64,000 bases of DNA from a virus, in the IMG/VR virus record IMGVR_UViG_3300030419_004471, positions 149,602 through 213,601 of that record, one strand, 5' to 3'. Below, one piece after another: positions 22,937 to 60,870 of the stretch. Positions within the stretch are counted from its first letter, which is position 1. Each line of letters begins with the position of its first letter. The position numbers were made by a program, and so were the translations under genes. The notes below the pieces were generated by a model that had not been told where the DNA came from, searched no databases, and saw nothing but the letters and a program-made list of their open reading frames with translations.

Positions 22937-23569
22937 TTATATAATAGTTTTACTTCTTCTATTAACCTGACATTGGATTTCGTAATCACTCCAATGTTTT
23001 GTTGGTACTGAATTTGGAAAGTAAAAACATTCTTTTCTACCATCTGGGAATGTTATATGTTTCCAATAACCATTTGGTACATGCCCACCAGTTGGTAATA
23101 TTAAATGGTCTTTTTCAAAATGTAAAACAATTCTTACTTTTAAAGTACCATATTTTTTAGCCCATTCTCTTTCTTGAGCTTCCAACTCTCTCCACGCACC
23201 TCTATTTAACTTATCAAATTGTAGAGAACAATTTAAATAAGAAAATGTAGTTTTTAAATTTTCTTTAGTGTCGGTAAAAGCAGCGGCTGGTGCCATATGA
23301 CCTTTATCCCACACATTATTTTTATAATCATCATTATCTGATGTATAAACTCCTTTAGGAACATAAAAATCCATACTACCTCTATCGAATTTTTTAACAA
23401 TATTCCTAACTTCATACTCAACCCAATTTGGTTGTTCTAATGTTTCATTGTAAGAAACTTTAAATACATCATTCTCAATTCTTACATCTGTTCTGTTTTG
23501 TCCAAAGCTACTAAGGAAAACTCCTACGCATAATAGTAGGGATAAGCTTAATTTCAATTTGTATTTCAT
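22937..23569 (-). CDS. Exported DNA/RNA non-specific endonuclease
   Basis: A 210-residue NUC-family nuclease with an N-terminal signal peptide (basic start, hydrophobic core about 8-20, ending SSFGQ). The catalytic DRGH-type motif reads DKGHMAP (residues 88-94, His91 as general base), with the metal-binding Asn/Glu helix in LNRGAWRELE (N122, E130). Secretion implies action in the periplasm or outside, for example on competing phage DNA or released host nucleic acids. An ATATTTATA box lies upstream at 23601-23609. Confidence 0.82.
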   Translation of the reverse strand: MKYKLKLSLSLLLCVGVFLSSFGQNRTDVRIENDVFKVSYNETLEQPNWVEYEVRNIVKKFDRGSMDFYVPKGVYTSDNDDYKNNVWDKGHMAPAAAFTDTKENLKTTFSYLNCSLQFDKLNRGAWRELEAQEREWAKKYGTLKVRIVLHFEKDHLILPTGGHVPNGYWKHITFPDGRKECFYFPNSVPTKHWSDYEIQCQVNRRSKTII

Positions 23570-27228: not shown

Positions 27229-27260
27229 CAAATATACGAAAAATATTTTAATTTTCCAAA
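27229..27260 (-). promoter_or_regulatory. Bacteroidetes-type promoter (P5)
   Basis: TTTGG (complement of 27256-27260), 19 nt, then TATATTTG (complement of 27229-27236). It overlaps the last codons of the upstream exported protein gene. Only four bases separate the -7 box from the polymerase ATG, so the transcript would start at or next to the start codon. Confidence 0.78.
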
Positions 27261-27673
27261 TCTTTTTGAGATATTTTGATAAGTGGGAATATAATTCCAA
27301 CTGTTTTTCTCATTTTAGAATAATTGAAGAAGAATCTTATAGGATATTCTTTTAATGGTTTTACTGTTGCTATAGCAAATGGTTTAGTATCAGCGTGTCC
27401 ACCAATAATAATACCCCCACCTAAACTAAATTGTTCGAAATGATATTGTGAATTAACCATAACCTTTCCTTTGTTTAGATTTTCTATTGGAGTCATATAA
27501 GCAATCCCAACTGATACTATTGTATCATACCTTTGATTTAAAGATATTCCAATCATATCGTCTCCTACATTAAGTGCTCTTCCAGTCATAACTCCTACAG
27601 TTGTTTGTGCAAATGTAGTAGTTGATAGCAATAATAATAAAATTATTGCAATTATAATTTTAAAAGTTCTCAT
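27248..27673 (-). CDS. Small exported beta-rich protein
   Basis: A 141-residue protein with a signal peptide: MRTFK, a hydrophobic run of about 15 residues and the cleavage context TTTFAQ, typical of Bacteroidetes secreted proteins. The mature part alternates polar and hydrophobic residues in short strands (VGIAYMTP, YHFEQFSLGGGIIIGG, IRFFFNYSKM), resembling a fragment of an outer-membrane beta-barrel. A superinfection-exclusion or host-envelope role is possible. It overlaps the UvdE gene by ATGA. Confidence 0.65.
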   Translation of the reverse strand: MRTFKIIIAIILLLLLSTTTFAQTTVGVMTGRALNVGDDMIGISLNQRYDTIVSVGIAYMTPIENLNKGKVMVNSQYHFEQFSLGGGIIIGGHADTKPFAIATVKPLKEYPIRFFFNYSKMRKTVGIIFPLIKISQKDLEN

Positions 27674-28589: not shown

Positions 28590-28620
28590 CAAATATACGA
28601 AAAATTATTGAAATATCCAA
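28590..28620 (-). promoter_or_regulatory. Bacteroidetes-type promoter (P6)
   Basis: TTGG (complement of 28617-28620), 19 nt, then TATATTTG (complement of 28590-28597), 20 nt before the UvdE ATG. It carries the same 19-base upstream stretch as P4. Confidence 0.78.
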
Positions 28621-28638
28621 GGAAAAAGTGAATTATTT

Positions 28639-37974: not shown

Positions 37975-38235
37975 TTATTTTATTCCAAATTGTTTCATAG
38001 CTTTTGCTAACGCTGGAGATGGTTTTAAACCTTTGGCTTTCATCTTAGCGGTTGCTTTTTTTAAATCATCTAAAGCTTTATCACCATCTGCTAAAGCTTG
38101 TTGAAGTGATTTATCTTTAGCCAATACTTTTTGAATTTTTCTTTTGAAAAAATTAACTAAAAATCCTTCTCTTTTTAGATTGTGTTTTTTAACAATATTA
38201 GAGAATAGTATCTTATCGTTTTCGTTTATTTTCAT
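37975..38235 (-). CDS. Small basic protein before the tape measure
   Basis: An 86-residue Lys-rich helical protein (FKRKIQKVLAKDKSLQQALADGDKALDDLKKATAKMKAKG). It has a strong Shine-Dalgarno (AAAGGAG, seven bases before ATG) and its own ATATTTATA box at 38269-38277 after a terminator, so it probably starts the tape-measure transcript. It could be a tape-measure chaperone or a small tail component; nothing specific is recognised. Confidence 0.65.
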   Translation of the reverse strand: MKINENDKILFSNIVKKHNLKREGFLVNFFKRKIQKVLAKDKSLQQALADGDKALDDLKKATAKMKAKGLKPSPALAKAMKQFGIK

Positions 38236-39393: not shown

Positions 39394-39882
39394 TTAGAAT
39401 TCTAAGATTGCGTAATCATAAGATAACGTCAATGTGATTTCAGCTGGGTCATTAGAAGCCCAATCTAAATCATTAAATGCAGCAGATGTAATAAATGCAC
39501 CTTTTAGTGTCCATTGTTCAATTTTATCACCAACTGGCCCTAACATATAGAAATTTACATCTTTCTTATAGAAATCTGCGTATCCATCTCTACCCGTTAA
39601 AGATTCGTGTGATGTTCTAACCCATTCCATCACTTGTTGTGCTCCTGAAGGAACGATAGGGTCATATAGAGTAATCTCTACATCTTGCCATTCACCTTTA
39701 CCTTTTAGTTTTCTCTTAACGTTAATATGGTCTAACGTTACAGGTTCAAACTGAATAGTAGGTCTGTTGGCTGTTTTTATTAAATATGAGTCTATACCAT
39801 CAATGTTCATAATGAACCTGTTCTTCATCTTCGGTTCGAAGTTGGTATAAAACATTTCGTTGAATTCTAATACTTCTGCCAT
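39394..39882 (-). CDS. 19: Tail tube protein, gp19
   Basis: A 162-residue tube protein. Conserved pattern: MKNRFIMNIDGIDSYLIKTANRPTI, HINVKRKLKGKGEWQDVEITLYDPI, QQVMEWVRTSHESLTGRDGYADFYKKD, and the closing DWASNDPAEITLTLSYDYAILEF. Hexamers stack to form the inner tail tube through which DNA passes. It has a Shine-Dalgarno AGGAG nine bases before the ATG and an ATATTTATA box at 39906-39914, and is followed by a strong terminator. Confidence 0.92.
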   Translation of the reverse strand: MAEVLEFNEMFYTNFEPKMKNRFIMNIDGIDSYLIKTANRPTIQFEPVTLDHINVKRKLKGKGEWQDVEITLYDPIVPSGAQQVMEWVRTSHESLTGRDGYADFYKKDVNFYMLGPVGDKIEQWTLKGAFITSAAFNDLDWASNDPAEITLTLSYDYAILEF

Positions 39883-39905: not shown

Positions 39906-39914
39906 TATAAATAT
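39906..39914 (-). promoter_or_regulatory. ATATTTATA box, putative late promoter
   Basis: Located 23 bases before the tail tube ATG. It shares the longer string AACTATATATTTATAT with the box upstream of the gene at 42675. Confidence 0.5.
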
Positions 39915-39932
39915 ATAGTTTTTAAATTTTCA

Positions 39933-42311
39933 TTATGCTGAGAACGAAGCCCCTGTCGGTAGAATGTTGAAATCAATTACTATGAATTCAGCTGTCTTAG
40001 TAGGTTGTAAAAATATTTGTCCTGCTAAGATGTTTCTATCGATTACATCAGGAGTGTTGTTTGTTTCATCCATCACCACTTTGAATGCGTATAACCCTTG
40101 TCTTTGCTGTACACCTTCTAAATATGGTTGTACAGTGTTTATAAATCTATTTCTAGTCTGTGCCGTATTTTGTTCAAAGATTAAGTATCTTGAAGTACTT
40201 GCTACAAACTTTTTAACTTTAATCAATAATCTTCTTACATTAATTCTATCTAATGCTGAAGCTTTATCTTGTAATGTTTTTTGTCCGAATGCTACGATTC
40301 CTTCTCCAGGGAACGATGCGATTGGATTAACCTTACCTTCATAAAGTGTATCTCTTTCAGCGTGCGTTAATCTGTTCATTACAGAAACTGCTCCTACAAT
40401 TCCACCTCTGTTTAATCCAGCAGGTGCGAACCATTCGGCTGCTATTCTATCGTTAGCTGCGTAAATACCTGGCATCAATACTGATGGTGGTACTGCAGTT
40501 AATTTGTTAGTATTAATATCGATTGTTTTAACCCAAGGATAATAAGTACCAACATAGTTAGAATCTACTGCATCTGCTTGAGTTGTTGCTTGTGCTATAG
40601 TATCACTATGTGCGGTTGTATCTCCAATGAAGAAACAATCTGCTCTATCTTCACAAGTATCAACAATTTTATCAAACACATAAGAGTGTAATCTACGAAT
40701 AACACCTGGTGCTGATACTAAATTAATATCGAAATCATCAGGGTTAGAAATTGCGTTGATTGCTTTAACATATGCAACTGAACCACTACTTGTCGAATTT
40801 GTTAAGTTAAATCCTTGAGAGTTACCTGCTGTTATATCTGAACCAAGTTTCTTTCTTATCGTTGGAGAAACTCCATCGTATCCACTTTGGAACATTACAG
40901 TAAACTGTCTCTTAGCGATATCAACTGCTGCTGAACCTGTCATCTCATATGAGTATGAATGAGTACTACCGTCTATCTGAACACTTGTATCAAATGCAAA
41001 TACTCCGTTAGAACCTGTTCCTGCTGATTGAGGAATCGGTGCAACATAGTTTTTGTTATCAATCTTAATTGTAGCTGATTCTATATCCATACCAGCGTAT
41101 TTAACTTTTGAACTAGCCGTATTTGAATCAGAACCTGTACTGAATATTACTGCAGGTACTAAATCTTCTTCTGCTGAAGTAGCTGTACCACTAATATTAA
41201 TTGGGTTTTGATATTCACCGTGTCCAAATGGTGCTGATGTTATTGGGAATGCTCCTTCTGCTACACACTCAACATAAATATAATCAGAGTAATTTGCATA
41301 ATCTCCAGTTTCAGTTTGTTTACCATCTGAATCGATTGTTATGTATCTATCACCAATTACTTTTTTAATGTATTGAGGTGAAGCTGGGTCTAAGTTAACA
41401 TTATTAAATGTTTCTAAAACATTCTTTCTTTTATCAGTATCACTAAATTTTCTAACTGCTATAGAGAACGTTGCATAATCTGTAGATGCGTTGCTTCCTG
41501 CAGGTTTAACATTAAATACTGAGATTTTATATGCTTGGTTCGTATCAGTACCATGCGATATAGTATGGAATCTAAATAAGTTATGTCTTTGACCTGATAT
41601 TAATTGTGATTTAATATAAGGTGTGGTTGCTCTCTGAGTATCAACATTAAAGTCTTGGTCTGCTAATGATAAAAACTCAACTGATGAACCACTATTAATA
41701 AAGTAATCTACTTGATTCGTAGCGTTGTTTTCAAAATATTTGTAAACATATGCGTTTTTGCTTCCAAGCGGTGATTCCCCAAATAAATCTCTGATGTCAC
41801 TACCAGATGCTGGGATTACCGATGCGGATACTGCTGTTCCTAATTGTGAACCACTAATATTAAAAGTAGAAGAAGATAACTGACATTCAATTGTGTTAGT
41901 AGCTGATGGGAATCCAGTTCCTTCAGTTCCATTTTCAGTTGCAAATAGTGTACCTACTAATGTTCTAGCTCCAGCACTACCTGTAGTAGCTGCTGCATCT
42001 CTAGAACCAGATACTACGATACCTACTGGGTCAACCATAGTATATCCACCTAAGTGTCCTACTTTAACAATTGTTACAGTTCCTGCTTCTCTTAAATAGT
42101 TTTGTACGGTATATCCTGTATAGTATGTTCCATCAGGTACACCGAAAATTTCTTCAAATTCTGATTGGGTATTTACGATTGTTGGTACGAATGCAGGTCC
42201 TTTTTTGAAAGGTCCTATAATTGCGGCACCAATCTCACCTATTCCTTGCGAAATAAATGATAAATCATTTTCTCTTGTAAATACGCCAGGTGATACGATT
42301 TTTTCTGCCAT
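39933..42311 (-). CDS. 18: Tail sheath protein, gp18
   Basis: A 792-residue contractile sheath protein. The N-terminus IVSPGVFTRENDLSFI...GAAIIGPFKKGPAFVPTIV is diagnostic of phage sheath proteins, and the C-terminal domain contains APAGLNRG, LYEGKVNPIASFPGEGIVAFGQKTL, INVRRLLIKVKKFV...RYLIFEQNT and the final FIVIDFNILPTGASF. T4 gp18 is 659 residues; the extra length lies in the beta-rich surface domains (about 130-480). Strong Shine-Dalgarno AAAGGAG eight bases before ATG. Confidence 0.95.
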   Translation of the reverse strand: MAEKIVSPGVFTRENDLSFISQGIGEIGAAIIGPFKKGPAFVPTIVNTQSEFEEIFGVPDGTYYTGYTVQNYLREAGTVTIVKVGHLGGYTMVDPVGIVVSGSRDAAATTGSAGARTLVGTLFATENGTEGTGFPSATNTIECQLSSSTFNISGSQLGTAVSASVIPASGSDIRDLFGESPLGSKNAYVYKYFENNATNQVDYFINSGSSVEFLSLADQDFNVDTQRATTPYIKSQLISGQRHNLFRFHTISHGTDTNQAYKISVFNVKPAGSNASTDYATFSIAVRKFSDTDKRKNVLETFNNVNLDPASPQYIKKVIGDRYITIDSDGKQTETGDYANYSDYIYVECVAEGAFPITSAPFGHGEYQNPINISGTATSAEEDLVPAVIFSTGSDSNTASSKVKYAGMDIESATIKIDNKNYVAPIPQSAGTGSNGVFAFDTSVQIDGSTHSYSYEMTGSAAVDIAKRQFTVMFQSGYDGVSPTIRKKLGSDITAGNSQGFNLTNSTSSGSVAYVKAINAISNPDDFDINLVSAPGVIRRLHSYVFDKIVDTCEDRADCFFIGDTTAHSDTIAQATTQADAVDSNYVGTYYPWVKTIDINTNKLTAVPPSVLMPGIYAANDRIAAEWFAPAGLNRGGIVGAVSVMNRLTHAERDTLYEGKVNPIASFPGEGIVAFGQKTLQDKASALDRINVRRLLIKVKKFVASTSRYLIFEQNTAQTRNRFINTVQPYLEGVQQRQGLYAFKVVMDETNNTPDVIDRNILAGQIFLQPTKTAEFIVIDFNILPTGASFSA

Positions 42312-42754: not shown

Positions 42755-44071
42755 TTATGAACTTATAGTAAAGGTCAAAGTTGCACTCCAGTCACTAGCT
42801 AAACCTTGGTCATAAGCTCTTACTCTAAGATATCTAGTTCCTGTTCCTATACCACTTATACCACTAACACTACTAATACTAGTTGCAACATGCCCAGTTA
42901 CATTAGCTATTGTTGAACCAAAATCATTATTATCATCAATTTGGTAATCATATGCGGTAATTCCGCCTGTACCCGTTGATGATGGTGCTGTCCAACTAAG
43001 AACATCTGTTCCTGAATTATATGCTAATGATGATGGTGCATCTGGTGCGGTTAAATCAGTATGGGAATTCCCACCTTTATTGTGAGTAACATATCCATTT
43101 ACTAAATAAGTATCTTGTACTTCTACATCTAAAGATACTATTTCTATTTCATCAGTATCTATTGTTATTGAAGTAATTTCTTTTTCTGTTAATACATCTC
43201 TTATCTCTTGAATTAAATAATCTCCGATTTCTAATCTTACTAATTCTTTAAATCTGTATTTTCCATCCGATTTATCTTTTACTAACATTGGGTGTTCGGA
43301 TGTACCTTTTACTTCACCATTATTAATGTTGTATATTTTATTACTAAAAGAGTAAGTTACATTTACTACTTTTACATTTTTTTGAGTTTCTCCAATTGTA
43401 TCAGATTCCCATTCTAAAAAATCACCATCTGAATCTTCTGATAATCCAGCTAATGCATATCCTTTTAATTCATCACCTTCATTTAAATCTCCAACCTCAA
43501 CTACATTTCCATCTGCTTTTGTTATAGGTGAATCAGATACTAAACATAATGCAGCTGCATTACCATCATATGAATCTACGGAATATATTGTTTTTGTAAC
43601 TGCAGTATTATATTTGTTTCCTGAACCTAAATGGTCATTAAATCCATCAGCGAATTTTACTTGAAGTGTATGTGCTTGAGCTCCAACTAATTGAGTTTGA
43701 GTTGCTGCATTTGTCATATTTCCAGCAGTAATAGTTATAGAACCACTACCAGCTGCAGCTGCATCATATGATGCTGATGTGAAATATGTAGTTCCAGCTG
43801 AAGTTATTGTCCAATCATAATTTTTCTTTTGGTCTTTTATTTTTTTAAATCGTCCACCTTCATTACTAAATGTTACAGTATAATCTTCTGCTGTACTTTC
43901 AACTACATAAGTATATCCACTTATTGAACTCACTGCATCTATAGAAAATGCTGACATTGATATTGGAGTTGCTGTACTACCAGCACAAGTACCCAATGAT
44001 TTGGTACTTTCATCACAAGCCGTTGCTAAACTATTTAGTGAGAGTGTATTTCCTGCTGCTAATGTTGCCAT
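42755..44071 (-). CDS. Virion surface protein with embedded Hint (intein-like) domain and FN3-like end
   Basis: A 438-residue protein. Residues 1-170 are a Ser/Thr/Ala-rich beta structure typical of fibre or decoration proteins. Residues 176-331 form a Hint domain: block A CLVSDSPITKADG...VGDLNEGDEL (nucleophile C176), block B GTSEHPML (H260), and the C-terminal block DTYLVNGYVTHN (H330, N331). The next residue is Lys332, not Cys/Ser/Thr. Residues about 340-438 resemble a fibronectin type III domain (APDAPSSLAYN...LSWTAPSSTG). Self-cleavage is likely; clean splicing is not. Confidence 0.78.
   Translation of the reverse strand: MATLAAGNTLSLNSLATACDESTKSLGTCAGSTATPISMSAFSIDAVSSISGYTYVVESTAEDYTVTFSNEGGRFKKIKDQKKNYDWTITSAGTTYFTSASYDAAAAGSGSITITAGNMTNAATQTQLVGAQAHTLQVKFADGFNDHLGSGNKYNTAVTKTIYSVDSYDGNAAALCLVSDSPITKADGNVVEVGDLNEGDELKGYALAGLSEDSDGDFLEWESDTIGETQKNVKVVNVTYSFSNKIYNINNGEVKGTSEHPMLVKDKSDGKYRFKELVRLEIGDYLIQEIRDVLTEKEITSITIDTDEIEIVSLDVEVQDTYLVNGYVTHNKGGNSHTDLTAPDAPSSLAYNSGTDVLSWTAPSSTGTGGITAYDYQIDDNNDFGSTIANVTGHVATSISSVSGISGIGTGTRYLRVRAYDQGLASDWSATLTFTISS
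43079..43546 (-). other. Hint / bacterial intein-like domain (codons 176-331)
   Basis: Bounded by Cys176 and the His330-Asn331 pair. Splicing blocks A, B, F and G are visible and no homing endonuclease is inserted, which gives a mini-domain of 156 residues. The +1 Lys and the non-conserved flanks fit bacterial intein-like domains, which mostly cleave or cross-link rather than splice. Confidence 0.75.
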
Positions 44072-54876: not shown

Positions 54877-56511
54877 TTATAAAGTATCTAAATCAGCGAT
54901 TTCAATCTTACCATAGAATTCTGGTCTTACCATCTTCTTAGCGTATCTAGTCATTACACCTCTTCTTGGTGTAAAGTTCGCTGGGTCATAAACCAACGGA
55001 GTCATTATAAGCGGTACATATGGTGCATAAACTGCTCCACTTTCAAGGAAGTTGCTACCTTTAAATCCTAATAAGATTTCGTTAGAAGTCATATAAGGGT
55101 TTTTGTAAACAGTATATCTGTTTGCAAGAGCACCTACTTGAGTTACACCAGCTGCGAATTCCATAGCGTTTGCATCAGCGTTAACTGAGAAACCTGGAAT
55201 TGATTCTAGAATAGTACAAGCATCAGGACTAGCCACGATGAAGTTTGCACCACCTCTTAGAGTCAATTGGTGAATTCTGTTTGAAACTTTGTTGATTTTA
55301 ACACCTAATGTTTGGAACCAGGTATTTCTTTGGTATGCTACAGAAGAACTTGGTGCAGTCCATCCAGTACCATCCCACTCTTTACCAATAGTTACAGACC
55401 ATTTTTCACTTGATAATGCATTAGTTTTTAACATATCTAAGATTTCTAAGTCAATCTCTAATGAGATATACTCAGATAACATAGAAGTTAATTCAGCTTC
55501 TGCATCAATTGAGTGATAAGCGTTAAGGTCTTGCGCTAATTCAGGAGTCCATACTGCTTTTAACTTTCTAGTCTTAGCAACGATTGCCTCTGATTTCAAT
55601 TCAAGATCGATTTCAGGGATATCAAGTATAGTTCCAGAAGATGCAGCTCCAGCATTCATAACTGGGTCTCTATCTTCGAAATCACCTCTGTTAGTAGAAG
55701 CAGGTACATCAGCGTAGTTAATAGTACACGCGTCGATACCAGCATCTTCTGATGCAGATACAAAGAATACATAGTTTGAACCGTCAACTTTGTTGAAGTC
55801 ACCAAGTGTTTCAACTAGCTCAGTTCCACCAGTACCAGCGTTTACAACAGTAAATGCTCTAATTGCATCGTCATCAGCATTAGATGATACGTTAGATTTA
55901 GCGATTGTAATTTTTATGACCTCATTTGCTGCAATAGATGCAGTAAAGTTTGAGTCATATCTTAAGTCAGCGTTAGATGCAGTTGCAACAGTTGTGTTAC
56001 CTGCAGATACCGCTACTGATTGGTCGTTAAGGGTATAACCATAACGTCCACTACCATATAAACCATCTTTAGCTACGTTAGTTGAACCTAAATCACTTCC
56101 GTCTCCACCGAAAATCGATGAACCAGAATATGGAGTTACGTCCGAACCACTACCAAATTGATTGTTAAAGTACTTAAAGTCTAAATAGAAGATAAGTCCT
56201 GAAGGTAAGTTCATAGGTTGAACAGAAACGAAATTCTTCGCACTGATTTCACCAAAAATTCTTCTTACCAATGGTAGAGCTACACCATTCCACTCTTCAT
56301 TACCTGAAGCGGCAGAAGTAGCGTTAGCTTCATCAAGCAATTGTTTTGCTTGGTTTTCTAAAAGAACAGCCATCTGTGATTGTTCTCTTTCTTTTAAGCC
56401 TTCAAGAAGTCCAGTTTTTTCCCATTTGTTTTTCAAACCTCTAGTTTGCTCAAGCATTACTGCTTGTGGGTTCTTTCCTTCTGTTAGCTTTGATAAATCA
56501 AAATTTGCCAT
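54877..56511 (-). CDS. 23: Major capsid protein, gp23
   Basis: A 544-residue capsid protein. The N-terminal region ending around residue 70 (LLDEANATSAASGNEEW) should be removed by the gp21 protease. The HK97-like body includes LPLVRRIFGEISAKNFVSVQPMNLPSGLIFYLDFKY, TRKLKAVWTPELAQDLNAYHSIDAEAEL and the C-terminal RRGVMTRYAKKMVRPEFYGKIEI. The leader has a strong Shine-Dalgarno (AAAGGAG, nine bases before ATG). It is followed by a terminator and preceded by the scaffold gene. Confidence 0.95.
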   Translation of the reverse strand: MANFDLSKLTEGKNPQAVMLEQTRGLKNKWEKTGLLEGLKEREQSQMAVLLENQAKQLLDEANATSAASGNEEWNGVALPLVRRIFGEISAKNFVSVQPMNLPSGLIFYLDFKYFNNQFGSGSDVTPYSGSSIFGGDGSDLGSTNVAKDGLYGSGRYGYTLNDQSVAVSAGNTTVATASNADLRYDSNFTASIAANEVIKITIAKSNVSSNADDDAIRAFTVVNAGTGGTELVETLGDFNKVDGSNYVFFVSASEDAGIDACTINYADVPASTNRGDFEDRDPVMNAGAASSGTILDIPEIDLELKSEAIVAKTRKLKAVWTPELAQDLNAYHSIDAEAELTSMLSEYISLEIDLEILDMLKTNALSSEKWSVTIGKEWDGTGWTAPSSSVAYQRNTWFQTLGVKINKVSNRIHQLTLRGGANFIVASPDACTILESIPGFSVNADANAMEFAAGVTQVGALANRYTVYKNPYMTSNEILLGFKGSNFLESGAVYAPYVPLIMTPLVYDPANFTPRRGVMTRYAKKMVRPEFYGKIEIADLDTL

Positions 56512-56532
56512 TTGTTTTCTCTCCTTTAAAAA

Positions 56533-57684
56533 TTATTTAATGTTAGCTAACTTCTTAAATCTGTTAGCGATTTCGTTACCTTCAGAAATAATTTCTTTCT
56601 TAGGAGCAGTAGATTTAGTTACTGTAGATGCGATACCTTCAGTAATTTTTCTAGTCTGTCTTTTTTCTCCCGTGAATTTCATTGATTCTGCTAAAGTAGC
56701 GAATACCAATTTCACCTCTCTTACAGATTTTGTTCTGTCAAGAGTTTCAACAACTTTATGTTTTTGGTCATTGTTCATAACATATGAACGGAATAACTTA
56801 TTAGCATAAAGTAATTTTGCGTTTAGAAGGTTAACTTCATTGATAGTCTTTTTAAGTTCTTTGATAGTAGAGTATGCCTCTTCAAGTTCCTTATTAGTTT
56901 CTTCAAGTTCGTTAGATTCTTCAACTGCTTCTTCTTCAGATTCTTCTTCTTCTCCGTATCCCATTTCTCTTAGGATTTCGTCTAAGTCGATGTCATCTTC
57001 TTCTTCTTCAGTTTCAGCTTCTTCCTCAGTTGCTTCTTCTTCTGATGCTTCTTCTTCAGATTCTACTTCAGCTTCAGCTTCAGTTTCTTCTTCAGTTTCT
57101 TCATCATGCAATTCTTCAACCGAATCACCTTCCTCTTCTTCTTCACCTTCTTCTTCAGAAAGTTCAGATTCTAATTCTTTGATGATATCTTCAAGGTTAA
57201 GTTCTTCATCAACCTCTTCTTCATCATCACCATCTTCTTCAGATATTTCTTCAGATTCAGTTACTTCTTCTTCTTCGTCAGCTTCTTCATTAACTTCAGC
57301 TTCCTCAGAAACTTCTTCTTTATCTTCTGTTACGTCTGCTTCTTTTTCCTCAGAAACTTCTTCAGTTTCTTCGTTAACTTCTGCTTCTTTTTCTTCAGAT
57401 ACTTCTTCAGTTTCTTCGTTAACTTCTGCTTCTTCAGTTACTTCTTCAGTAGCTTCTTCAACTTTTTCTTCAGATACTTCTTCTGTAGACTCTTCAACTG
57501 CTTCTTCTACATCTTCTGTATCTTCATCTTCTTCTTCCATTTCTGATTGAAGTTTCTTAGATAAGATAGATTGTAGTTTTGGAGTAAATGCTTCTTCTAA
57601 TGCGATTTTTGCATTAGCGATTGCAGTTTCTCTTACAGCTTTAGCGTCAGCGATGGCTTCTTTTAATAATTTAGAATTTGCCAT
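56533..57684 (-). CDS. 22: Prohead core scaffold, gp22-like, with long acidic insert
   Basis: A 383-residue scaffold. The N-terminal 47 residues (LLKEAIADAKAVRETAIANAKIALEEAF) and C-terminal 115 residues (ELEEAYSTIKELKKTINEVNLLNAKLLYANKLFRSY... RTRKITEGIAST) match T4-like gp22. Between them, residues about 48-265 are almost only Glu, Asp, Ser, Val and Thr, including a 45-bp direct repeat (EVNEETEEVSEEKEA). The protein is longer than T4 gp22 (269 aa). The core is normally chewed to peptides by gp21; the acid load may occupy or organise head space. Confidence 0.85.
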   Translation of the reverse strand: MANSKLLKEAIADAKAVRETAIANAKIALEEAFTPKLQSILSKKLQSEMEEEDEDTEDVEEAVEESTEEVSEEKVEEATEEVTEEAEVNEETEEVSEEKEAEVNEETEEVSEEKEADVTEDKEEVSEEAEVNEEADEEEEVTESEEISEEDGDDEEEVDEELNLEDIIKELESELSEEEGEEEEEGDSVEELHDEETEEETEAEAEVESEEEASEEEATEEEAETEEEEDDIDLDEILREMGYGEEEESEEEAVEESNELEETNKELEEAYSTIKELKKTINEVNLLNAKLLYANKLFRSYVMNNDQKHKVVETLDRTKSVREVKLVFATLAESMKFTGEKRQTRKITEGIASTVTKSTAPKKEIISEGNEIANRFKKLANIK

Positions 57685-57785: not shown

Positions 57786-57811
57786 CGAAAAACACACATA
57801 GAACGTGTGTT
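57786..57811 (-). terminator. Hairpin with T-run in the gp22 leader
   Basis: Stem AACACAC / GTGTGTT with a seven-base loop, followed by five T on the minus strand. It follows both the bS21 gene and an ATACTTATA box (57818-57826). If that box is a promoter, the hairpin is the 5' end of the gp22-gp23 mRNA and may stabilise it; otherwise it is a weak terminator for the upstream operon. Confidence 0.6.
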
Positions 57812-57845: not shown

Positions 57846-58115
57846 TTATTTTCGTTTTCCTTTTTTTCTTTTTTTGGTGAATAATCTGATAGTTTTATCA
57901 CCATTTTCTATTTTTTCTAACAATGCAAGTTTCTGTTGTTCTCTTACTGCTTCTTGCTTTTGTTTTCTTTTTTTAGTAGTGGGTTTGGTATATTCTTGTC
58001 TTGTTCTTACTTCGTATAGATGACCTGAATCCTCTACTCTTCTTTTAAATATTTTTAATGCTTTTTGTAAGTTCCCATTTCTCACTTGGACACTTACCAA
58101 TTTTGTTTTACTCAT
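57846..58115 (-). CDS. rpsU: Ribosomal protein bS21 homologue
   Basis: An 89-residue basic protein matching bS21: VSVQVRNGNLQKALKIFKRRVEDSG, LYEVRTRQEYTKPTTKKRKQKQEA. Cellular bS21 is about 60-70 residues; this one has a longer basic C-terminal tail (RLFTKKRKKGKRK). bS21 sits next to the 3' end of 16S rRNA on the small subunit. In Bacteroidetes it helps bury the anti-Shine-Dalgarno. The gene lies in the late head operon between head-internal proteins and gp22. A GGAG stands almost directly against its own ATG. Confidence 0.85.
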   Translation of the reverse strand: MSKTKLVSVQVRNGNLQKALKIFKRRVEDSGHLYEVRTRQEYTKPTTKKRKQKQEAVREQQKLALLEKIENGDKTIRLFTKKRKKGKRK

Positions 58116-58138
58116 TCTCCTTTATTTAAATAACACAA

Positions 58139-60399: not shown

Positions 60400-60870
60400 T
60401 TATCCTTTACATCCGCCTTCGGTTACTCCTCCACATCCACAACCACAATCTCCTTTAGATTCTTTCATACTTAATCTTTCTCTCATCTCTTCTTCTGTAA
60501 TATCTCCGAGTTTGTAATATCTGGAAAGGATGTTACCCATATCTTCATATAATCCATGCATCCTTTGGTCTAAGTTCTTAGCTTCTTTAGTTACTTTTTT
60601 AAATTGAGTTTCTAATTTAGTTAGTTCACTCATATTTCTTTTTATGGTATGTCTATCAAACCAATCATCAGCTTCTCTAAGAGCAAGTTCTCTAGCTGCT
60701 TCGGTAATGGCACCCAATGTTTCAGCTATTTCAATGATATCTGATTTTCTATCAATTTGTTCTTGATACTTGTTATATGTAGATACGATTTCTAAGAAGT
60801 GTTTTTTTACTTCATTAGATAATCCTCTTTCTTCGTTTTCTTTTAATAAGTCTTTTAATTTAATAGCCAT
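60400..60870 (-). CDS. Putative head-internal coiled-coil protein with Cys-rich tail
   Basis: A 156-residue protein starting MAIKLKDLLKENEE (tag with an LKE site), then long helices (EVKKHFLEIVSTYNKYQEQI, LTKLETQFKKVTKEAKNLDQRM) and a C-terminal Cys/Gly tail (GDCGCGCGGVTEGGCKG) that may bind metal. Strong Shine-Dalgarno AAGGAG eight bases before the ATG. The Cys-Gly tail is an odd feature with no clear function. Confidence 0.62.
   Translation of the reverse strand: MAIKLKDLLKENEERGLSNEVKKHFLEIVSTYNKYQEQIDRKSDIIEIAETLGAITEAARELALREADDWFDRHTIKRNMSELTKLETQFKKVTKEAKNLDQRMHGLYEDMGNILSRYYKLGDITEEEMRERLSMKESKGDCGCGCGGVTEGGCKG

Follow-up and report, generated by a model that had tools for sequence, protein, structure and literature searches.

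Among the ribosomal proteins that phages encode, bS21 is the most frequent by a wide margin. In Bacteroidetes, bS21 helps to tuck away the 3' tail of 16S rRNA, and Shine-Dalgarno (SD) sites are therefore ignored. The locus described here places a bS21 gene among structural genes with AAAGGAG-type SD sites, in a phage predicted to infect such a host, and raises the question of whether the phage protein changes what the ribosome reads. We analyzed a window of 64,000 nucleotides, the final 64 kb of a 213,601-bp IMG/VR record (IMGVR_UViG_3300030419_004471; 31% G+C); coordinates below are positions in this window. The 265 genes called in the whole record are all on the minus strand. The record also contains three genes for tRNAs, those for Glu, Ala, and Cys.

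The bS21 Gene and Its Surroundings

The head region contains the following features.

57846-58115, minus strand: bS21 gene, 89 aa, with Arg58 at the place of Bacteroidetes Tyr54 and a basic C-terminal extension
57791-57811, minus strand: terminator-like hairpin with a 9-bp stem and a T-rich tail, directly 3' of bS21
56533-57684, minus strand: acidic gene resembling a prohead core/scaffold gene, flanked by bS21 and the capsid gene, SD AAAGGAAGG; role assigned from position
54877-56511, minus strand: major capsid protein (gp23-like), 49.5% identical to the capsid protein of Flavobacterium phage immuto
53597-54742, minus strand: head-tail adaptor/head completion gene, SD AGGAG

The product of 57846-58115 (MSKTKLVSVQVRNGNLQKALKIFKRRVEDSGHLYEVRTRQEYTKPTTKKRKQKQEAVREQQKLALLEKIENGDKTIRLFTKKRKKGKRK, 89 residues) matched the PF01165 profile over essentially the whole domain (positions 1-54 of 55) with 55.5 bits against a cut-off of 27 (E = 1.1e-15), and its PHROG annotation was "ribosomal protein S21." An AlphaFold model (mean pLDDT of 81) was a bS21-like chain of helices; the top matches of this model in a PDB fold search were mitochondrial S21 chains, none of them significant (best E of 0.08). 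The gene is part of the late head operon, with a single gene between it and the downstream major capsid gene. The preliminary description of this DNA had reported a complete bS21 homologue with a long basic tail in the late head operon, and this was confirmed, with the gene on the minus strand. Two terminator-like sites were found in the region compared to 1.1 expected, a weak excess, and the hairpin at 57791-57811 may close the bS21 transcription unit. A search of this phage genome for bS18 or IF3 genes, as other phage factors, found none.

Two further observations concern other parts of the window. A structural-region protein at 42755-44071 has a segment that looked by eye like a Hint/intein-type domain (CLVSDSP...TYLVNGYVTHN), and the adjacent genes at 1332-2135 and 2119-2880 encode similar proteins, apparently from a tandem duplication.

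Predicted Host

The host was predicted from the phage's own genes. Q-rule signal peptides, in which glutamine directly follows the cleavage site (marked here by a slash), were gathered by inspection from this phage and its relatives, with the endings TFA/Q, SFG/Q, NA/QE, and NA/QQ. Two of them are in the window.

22937-23569, minus strand: secreted endonuclease-like protein, signal peptide ending SFG/Q (Bacteroidetes Q-rule)
27248-27673, minus strand: secreted protein, signal peptide ending TFA/Q

The published account describes the Q-rule as specific to Bacteroidetes and not to the wider FCB group (PMC5837995). Lipoproteins such as SCKKEEEE are also encoded by the phage and its relatives, and the start regions of this phage are A-rich at -3 and at -11 to -14, which resembles the adenines reported upstream of F. 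johnsoniae genes (PMC9976891). From the Q-rule signal peptides, the immuto-like capsid, the host-type promoters, and the A-rich starts, the host is very likely a Bacteroidetes bacterium. On the first three of these we rejected a non-Bacteroidetes host, and a gammaproteobacterial match in a genome scan proved to be merely a chromosomal rpsU. The signal peptides also suggest a host in which SD use is not the norm. They occurred in SD-using and SD-less phages alike, which suggests that both kinds have Bacteroidetes hosts.

Loci L053 and L240 (PP395634.1, Microcystis phage Mel-JY01) encode a capsid protein 51% identical to that of this phage, and bS21 adjoins the capsid gene there. One signal peptide of Mel-JY01 ends IFS/Q, and this phage may infect a Bacteroidetes bacterium present in the algal culture.

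SD Sites Within the Genome

Coding score and length alone determined the choice of start codons, with no contribution from SD sites. Each SD site was scored as the pairing energy between the 20 bases upstream of the start and the 16S tail, for which the sequence AUCACCUCCUUUCU was assumed. The SD sites and promoters on which the analysis draws are listed below.

56521-56527, minus strand: capsid gene SD AAAGGAG, -9.1 kcal/mol
39933-42311, minus strand: tail sheath-like gene, SD AAAGGAG; named from the adjoining tail tube gene and the preliminary description
39394-39882, minus strand: tail tube gene, SD AGGAG, downstream of a late promoter
37975-38235 and 60400-60870: further genes with confirmed SD sites, named in the preliminary description
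39906-39915, minus strand: example of the late promoter TATATTTATA (T4-late-like)
28590-28622, minus strand: example of the host-type (early) promoter, CCTTGGA...TATATTTG, preceding an SD-less gene

The SD sites noted earlier at gp23, gp18, gp19, a gp13-like gene, and the last two genes above were all present. When SD strength was compared between gene classes genome-wide, the check proposed with that earlier list, the classes differed: 15 of 28 structural genes had a duplex energy of -6 kcal/mol or lower compared to 40 of the 237 remaining genes (Fisher p = 4.5e-5). The excess persisted among genes for which just one start was possible (p = 2.4e-4) and among genes of at least 150 aa (p = 1.7e-4), and only about 16% of shuffled upstream regions of the structural set reached the threshold. 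Two of 14 replication genes had an energy of -6 or lower.

The late-promoter motif TATTTATA occurred 44 times in sense and 13 times in antisense orientation. The host-type promoter, in the form TTTGG-N~20-TATATTTG, was found upstream of approximately 18 genes and is close to the Bacteroidetes housekeeping consensus. The preliminary description had noted that most genes behind such promoters lack SD sites, and strong sites were indeed found at only 2 of 18, compared to 8 of 28 genes behind the late promoter. When late-promoter and early-promoter genes alone were compared, the contrast was weaker (rank test p = 0.017, Fisher p = 0.3). Taken together, the late genes combine complementarity above chance with fixed spacing, as SD-led translation would have it. 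The early promoters at 28590-28622 and approximately 17 other sites in the genome have in common a long element, TTTTTCCTTGGATTTCTCAGGAA...TTTCGTATATTT, which exceeds a plain host promoter and may be bound by a phage or host regulator.

The structural excess recurred in 8 larger genomes of SD-using relatives (Mantel-Haenszel odds ratio of 3.6, p = 4e-11). It reached p < 0.05 in 6 of the 8 and was absent or unclear in G021 and G001.

bS21 and SD Sites Across Related Phages

Searches with the capsid protein and bS21 gave 260 usable loci, of which 179 were left after dereplication at 92% identity. Where bS21 was in the locus, its distance upstream of the capsid gene was 1.0-2.6 kb; its absence near the capsid could therefore be scored in loci with 3 kb or more of sequence on that side. 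Capsid SD sites were called at an energy cut of -4.5, and the clade resembling the phages of Chen et al. (PMC9723584) was left out. Among these dereplicated phages, a capsid SD was present in 81 of 86 with bS21 compared to 2 of 54 without bS21 near the capsid gene; that is, 81 had both, 52 had neither, 5 had bS21 only, and 2 had the SD only. The association was stable at energy cuts from -4 to -6, and its Fisher p of 6e-30 ignores kinship. Independent pairs on the capsid tree provided 8 usable contrasts, of which approximately 6.5 on average agreed and none opposed (median p = 0.016, range 0.016-0.06).

A whole-record search of 50 phages scored as lacking bS21, on contigs of up to 182 kb, found one with the gene elsewhere (G080, L354); L354 is SD-less, and its bS21 is away from the head genes. 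The loci of the first set that seemed to have SD sites without bS21 were rejected, as their contigs break off within 1.8 kb of the capsid gene on its upstream side. Only L080 was not of this kind; it is SD-positive without bS21 nearby, and its bS21 is elsewhere in the record. L374 uses SD sites, and no bS21 was found in its 54-kb fragment. In 4 of the 5 phages with bS21 and no capsid SD (L114, L123, L284, and L347), other genes of the locus use SD sites, which leaves L089 and, at the locus level, L088 as real exceptions. The excluded Chen-type clade has a bS21 with a host-like YIQ/YIE tail and SD-less late genes.

In the G021 record (L164-L174) and in loci L098, L111-L123, L134, L138, L153, and L155, bS21 has a GAGGT-type SD of its own. 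G021 has SD sites in early and late genes alike, so that the early/late contrast is lost. Since early genes use SD sites too and bS21 has its own, we infer that this subclade has no switch.

The link between bS21 and SD sites across phages was found in this analysis, and no report of SD use tracking phage bS21 was found among the open-access PMC papers searched. The two come and go together across relatives, a pattern that would fit a protein that adjusts the host ribosome in favor of late virus messages, and the comparative result supports a translational switch.

Residue 54

The bS21 of F. johnsoniae (7JIL chain) reads ...KPSVVKRAQIQKAAYIQ and contains Tyr54, whereas the phage protein reads KPTTKKRKQKQEAVREQQ. 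The alignment is gap-free after the KP motif and pairs Tyr54 with Arg58, so the statement in the preliminary description that the host's rRNA-contacting tyrosine aligns with arginine was correct, and the tyrosine is not conserved. Residues 44-78 of the phage protein contain no aromatic residue, and a small shift of the alignment therefore leaves the result unchanged. The protein does not have the Tyr54, or other aromatic residue stacking on A1534, of a Bacteroidetes-type bS21 that sequesters the anti-SD. Arginine was at this position in all 10 of the nearest IMG/VR relatives. The phage bS21 proteins of Chen et al. have an aromatic residue at position 54 in 61 of 61 cases (PMC9723584), and this family departs from that rule. 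In F. johnsoniae, strong-SD reporter output rises upon bS21 truncation, depletion, or the Y54A change, which raised it 1.7- to 3-fold (PMC9976891).

Tyr54-to-Arg as a general switch was clean in the first samples and was rejected after wider sampling. Among 80 phages with both bS21 and a capsid SD, position 54 was non-aromatic in 43 (R, K, L, V, S, or A) and aromatic in 37 (Y in 30, F in 7), which indicates that loss of the tyrosine is unnecessary for SD use. Conversely, L088 and L089 have arginine at position 54 and SD-poor late genes, which runs counter to a rule based on the residue as well as one based on the presence of bS21. Loss of the tyrosine may contribute in this phage's family, and another property of phage bS21 proteins besides residue 54 must matter.

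The Start of the bS21 Gene

The bS21 gene itself is preceded by an SD-like box in an unusual place.

58117-58123, minus strand: AAAGGAG before bS21, ending one base before the start codon, too close for normal SD work

The 10 nearest relatives and the sister lineage (L055-L060) likewise have AAGGAG ending one base before the bS21 ATG. In SD-using loci, 19 genes have GGAG 0-1 nt before the start, and 15 of these are bS21. A properly spaced SD was present at 97% of capsid genes and 11% of bS21 genes in these loci, and bS21 was last of 14 conserved late genes in mean pairing energy (-0.95 compared to -7.35 for capsid). Loci were classed as SD-using on the combined evidence of all their genes, which makes the capsid value partly circular; this caveat does not extend to the low rank of bS21. 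No SD was present at bS21 in 59 of 79 dereplicated phages, or in 51 when, wherever bS21 had more than one candidate start, the one with the most SD-like upstream region was used. Many of the other 20 are of the GAGGT type and belong to one subclade, whose larger genome G021 uses SD sites throughout. The absence of a working SD is expected of a gene that needs unaltered host ribosomes before a switch, and we speculate that bS21 shuts off its own synthesis through its start region.

AAGTTAT or AAGTTAC stands directly before the SD-less bS21 start codon in L109, L117, L278, L281, L286, L288, L301, L307, and others. This motif is common to many Tyr-type phages.

Proposed Mechanism and Alternatives

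Our preferred reading, to which we assign a probability of roughly 60%, is that phage bS21 enters the host 30S subunit, loosens the 16S tail, and favors SD-bearing late mRNAs. The protein would be made late from the head operon, from a message that needs no SD and is thus readable by unaltered host ribosomes. It would replace host bS21 on some 30S subunits, on which the 16S tail would be held less firmly, and late mRNAs with AAAGGAG-type sites would gain over SD-less host and early phage mRNAs. In this family, the SD pressed against the bS21 start could repress bS21 once the anti-SD is free. The earlier suggestion that phage bS21 favors late mRNAs gained strong support from the SD association across phages and further support from the within-genome contrast; what did not stand was the change from tyrosine to arginine as the general cause.

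The finding that E. coli ribosomes take up a pelagiphage bS21 (PMC6375957) makes an exchange of bS21 plausible. However, the E. coli ribosomes that carried it were nearly inactive (PMC6375957), which counts against the mechanism. So does SD strength, as the effect in F. johnsoniae ribosomes without bS21 needs a very strong SD, below -13 kcal/mol, as in rpsU autoregulation (PMC9976891), and most SD sites here are weaker (-7 to -9 kcal/mol).

It is unlikely, in our estimate, that the hosts simply differ, such that the Bacteroidetes concerned already read SD sites and the phages have bS21 for some other purpose, for example to maintain the supply of the protein to ribosomes. An SD-reading host should not yield the pattern of this phage and most of its relatives, in which early and unclassified genes are SD-poor and late genes SD-rich; the early genes of T4 do have SD sites. 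The SD-poor start of bS21 in the same phages also speaks against it, and the joint coming and going of bS21 and SD sites would be left unexplained. Such a difference would nevertheless suit G021 and the kin of L121, which use SD sites in early and late genes alike, and it is favored by the hosts being known only above the genus level and by the host rpsU compared being that of PDB chains.

Still less probable is that phage bS21 merely mimics the host protein and tops up ribosomes late in infection, with the late SD sites being a separate tuning for high expression. Replacement of this kind is the published view for Tyr54-type phages, with their aromatic residue in 61 of 61 (PMC9723584), and the loci of that type do lack SD sites, but no aromatic residue occupies the site in this phage. 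Moreover, phages without bS21 presumably express their capsid genes at equally high levels, but an SD is lacking at 52 of 54 of these genes. Finally, many AAGGAG boxes are shortly downstream of the late promoter TATATTTATA, but we regard it as very improbable that they are promoter parts or RNA-processing signals rather than SD sites, since their spacing clusters tightly, with GGAG ending 6-8 nt ahead of the start codon, they also precede operon-internal genes without a promoter motif, and they match the 16S tail.

A fuller version of the preferred reading is one that we hold only tentatively and consider somewhat doubtful. The phage would build specialized ribosomes: bS21 would turn an SD-blind ribosome into an SD-reading one, the late SD sites would match it, the bS21 start would be SD-free or jammed so that success stops synthesis, and clades would gain or lose the protein and the SD sites together. 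If true, this would be a natural case of virus-made specialized ribosomes and of a switch between early and late translation. That phages of SD-ignoring hosts gain or lose bS21 and SD sites in step offers a concrete, testable reason for carriage, in which the phage changes what the ribosome reads, and the result shifts attention away from the single residue Tyr54.

Comparison With Known Systems

Flavobacterium phage immuto (NC_055915) is a T4-like relative with similar replication genes in addition to its 49.5% identical capsid protein. No bS21 was found in it by tblastn, and its late genes are SD-less. Among pelagiphages, the bS21 of HTVC008M, the one shown to enter E. coli ribosomes (PMC6375957), is related to that of this phage, and the bS21 of Mosig is approximately 41% identical to it. 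Since 57% of Mosig genes have an energy of -6 or lower, SAR11 appears to use SD sites normally, and no unlocking would be needed there, unlike here.

The phages of Chen et al. (PMC9723584) are, like this one, large Bacteroidetes phages whose bS21 gene belongs to the late structural module, in the neighborhood of the capsid, protease, and portal genes, and whose bS21 was proposed to enter the ribosome late; here, bS21 is one gene upstream of the capsid gene. Replacement of the host protein by phage bS21, with an advantage for late messages, had already been proposed by those authors in 2022, so ribosome takeover by phage bS21 is not new. In contrast, the published freshwater phages keep the host-like Tyr54 (PMC9723584), and loci of their type in our set have an aromatic residue at 54 without late SD sites, whereas the present phage has arginine and SD-led late genes.

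McNutt et al. (PMC9976891) raised a connection among phages, mRNA selection, and bS21 as an open question. In the bS21 autoregulation that they described in F. johnsoniae, as in the mechanism proposed here, the reading of SD sites depends on the bS21 status of the ribosome, and the start of the bS21 gene is specialized. The rpsU gene of F. johnsoniae has a very strong SD that is read by ribosomes without bS21; the phage gene, without a working SD, is its mirror image.
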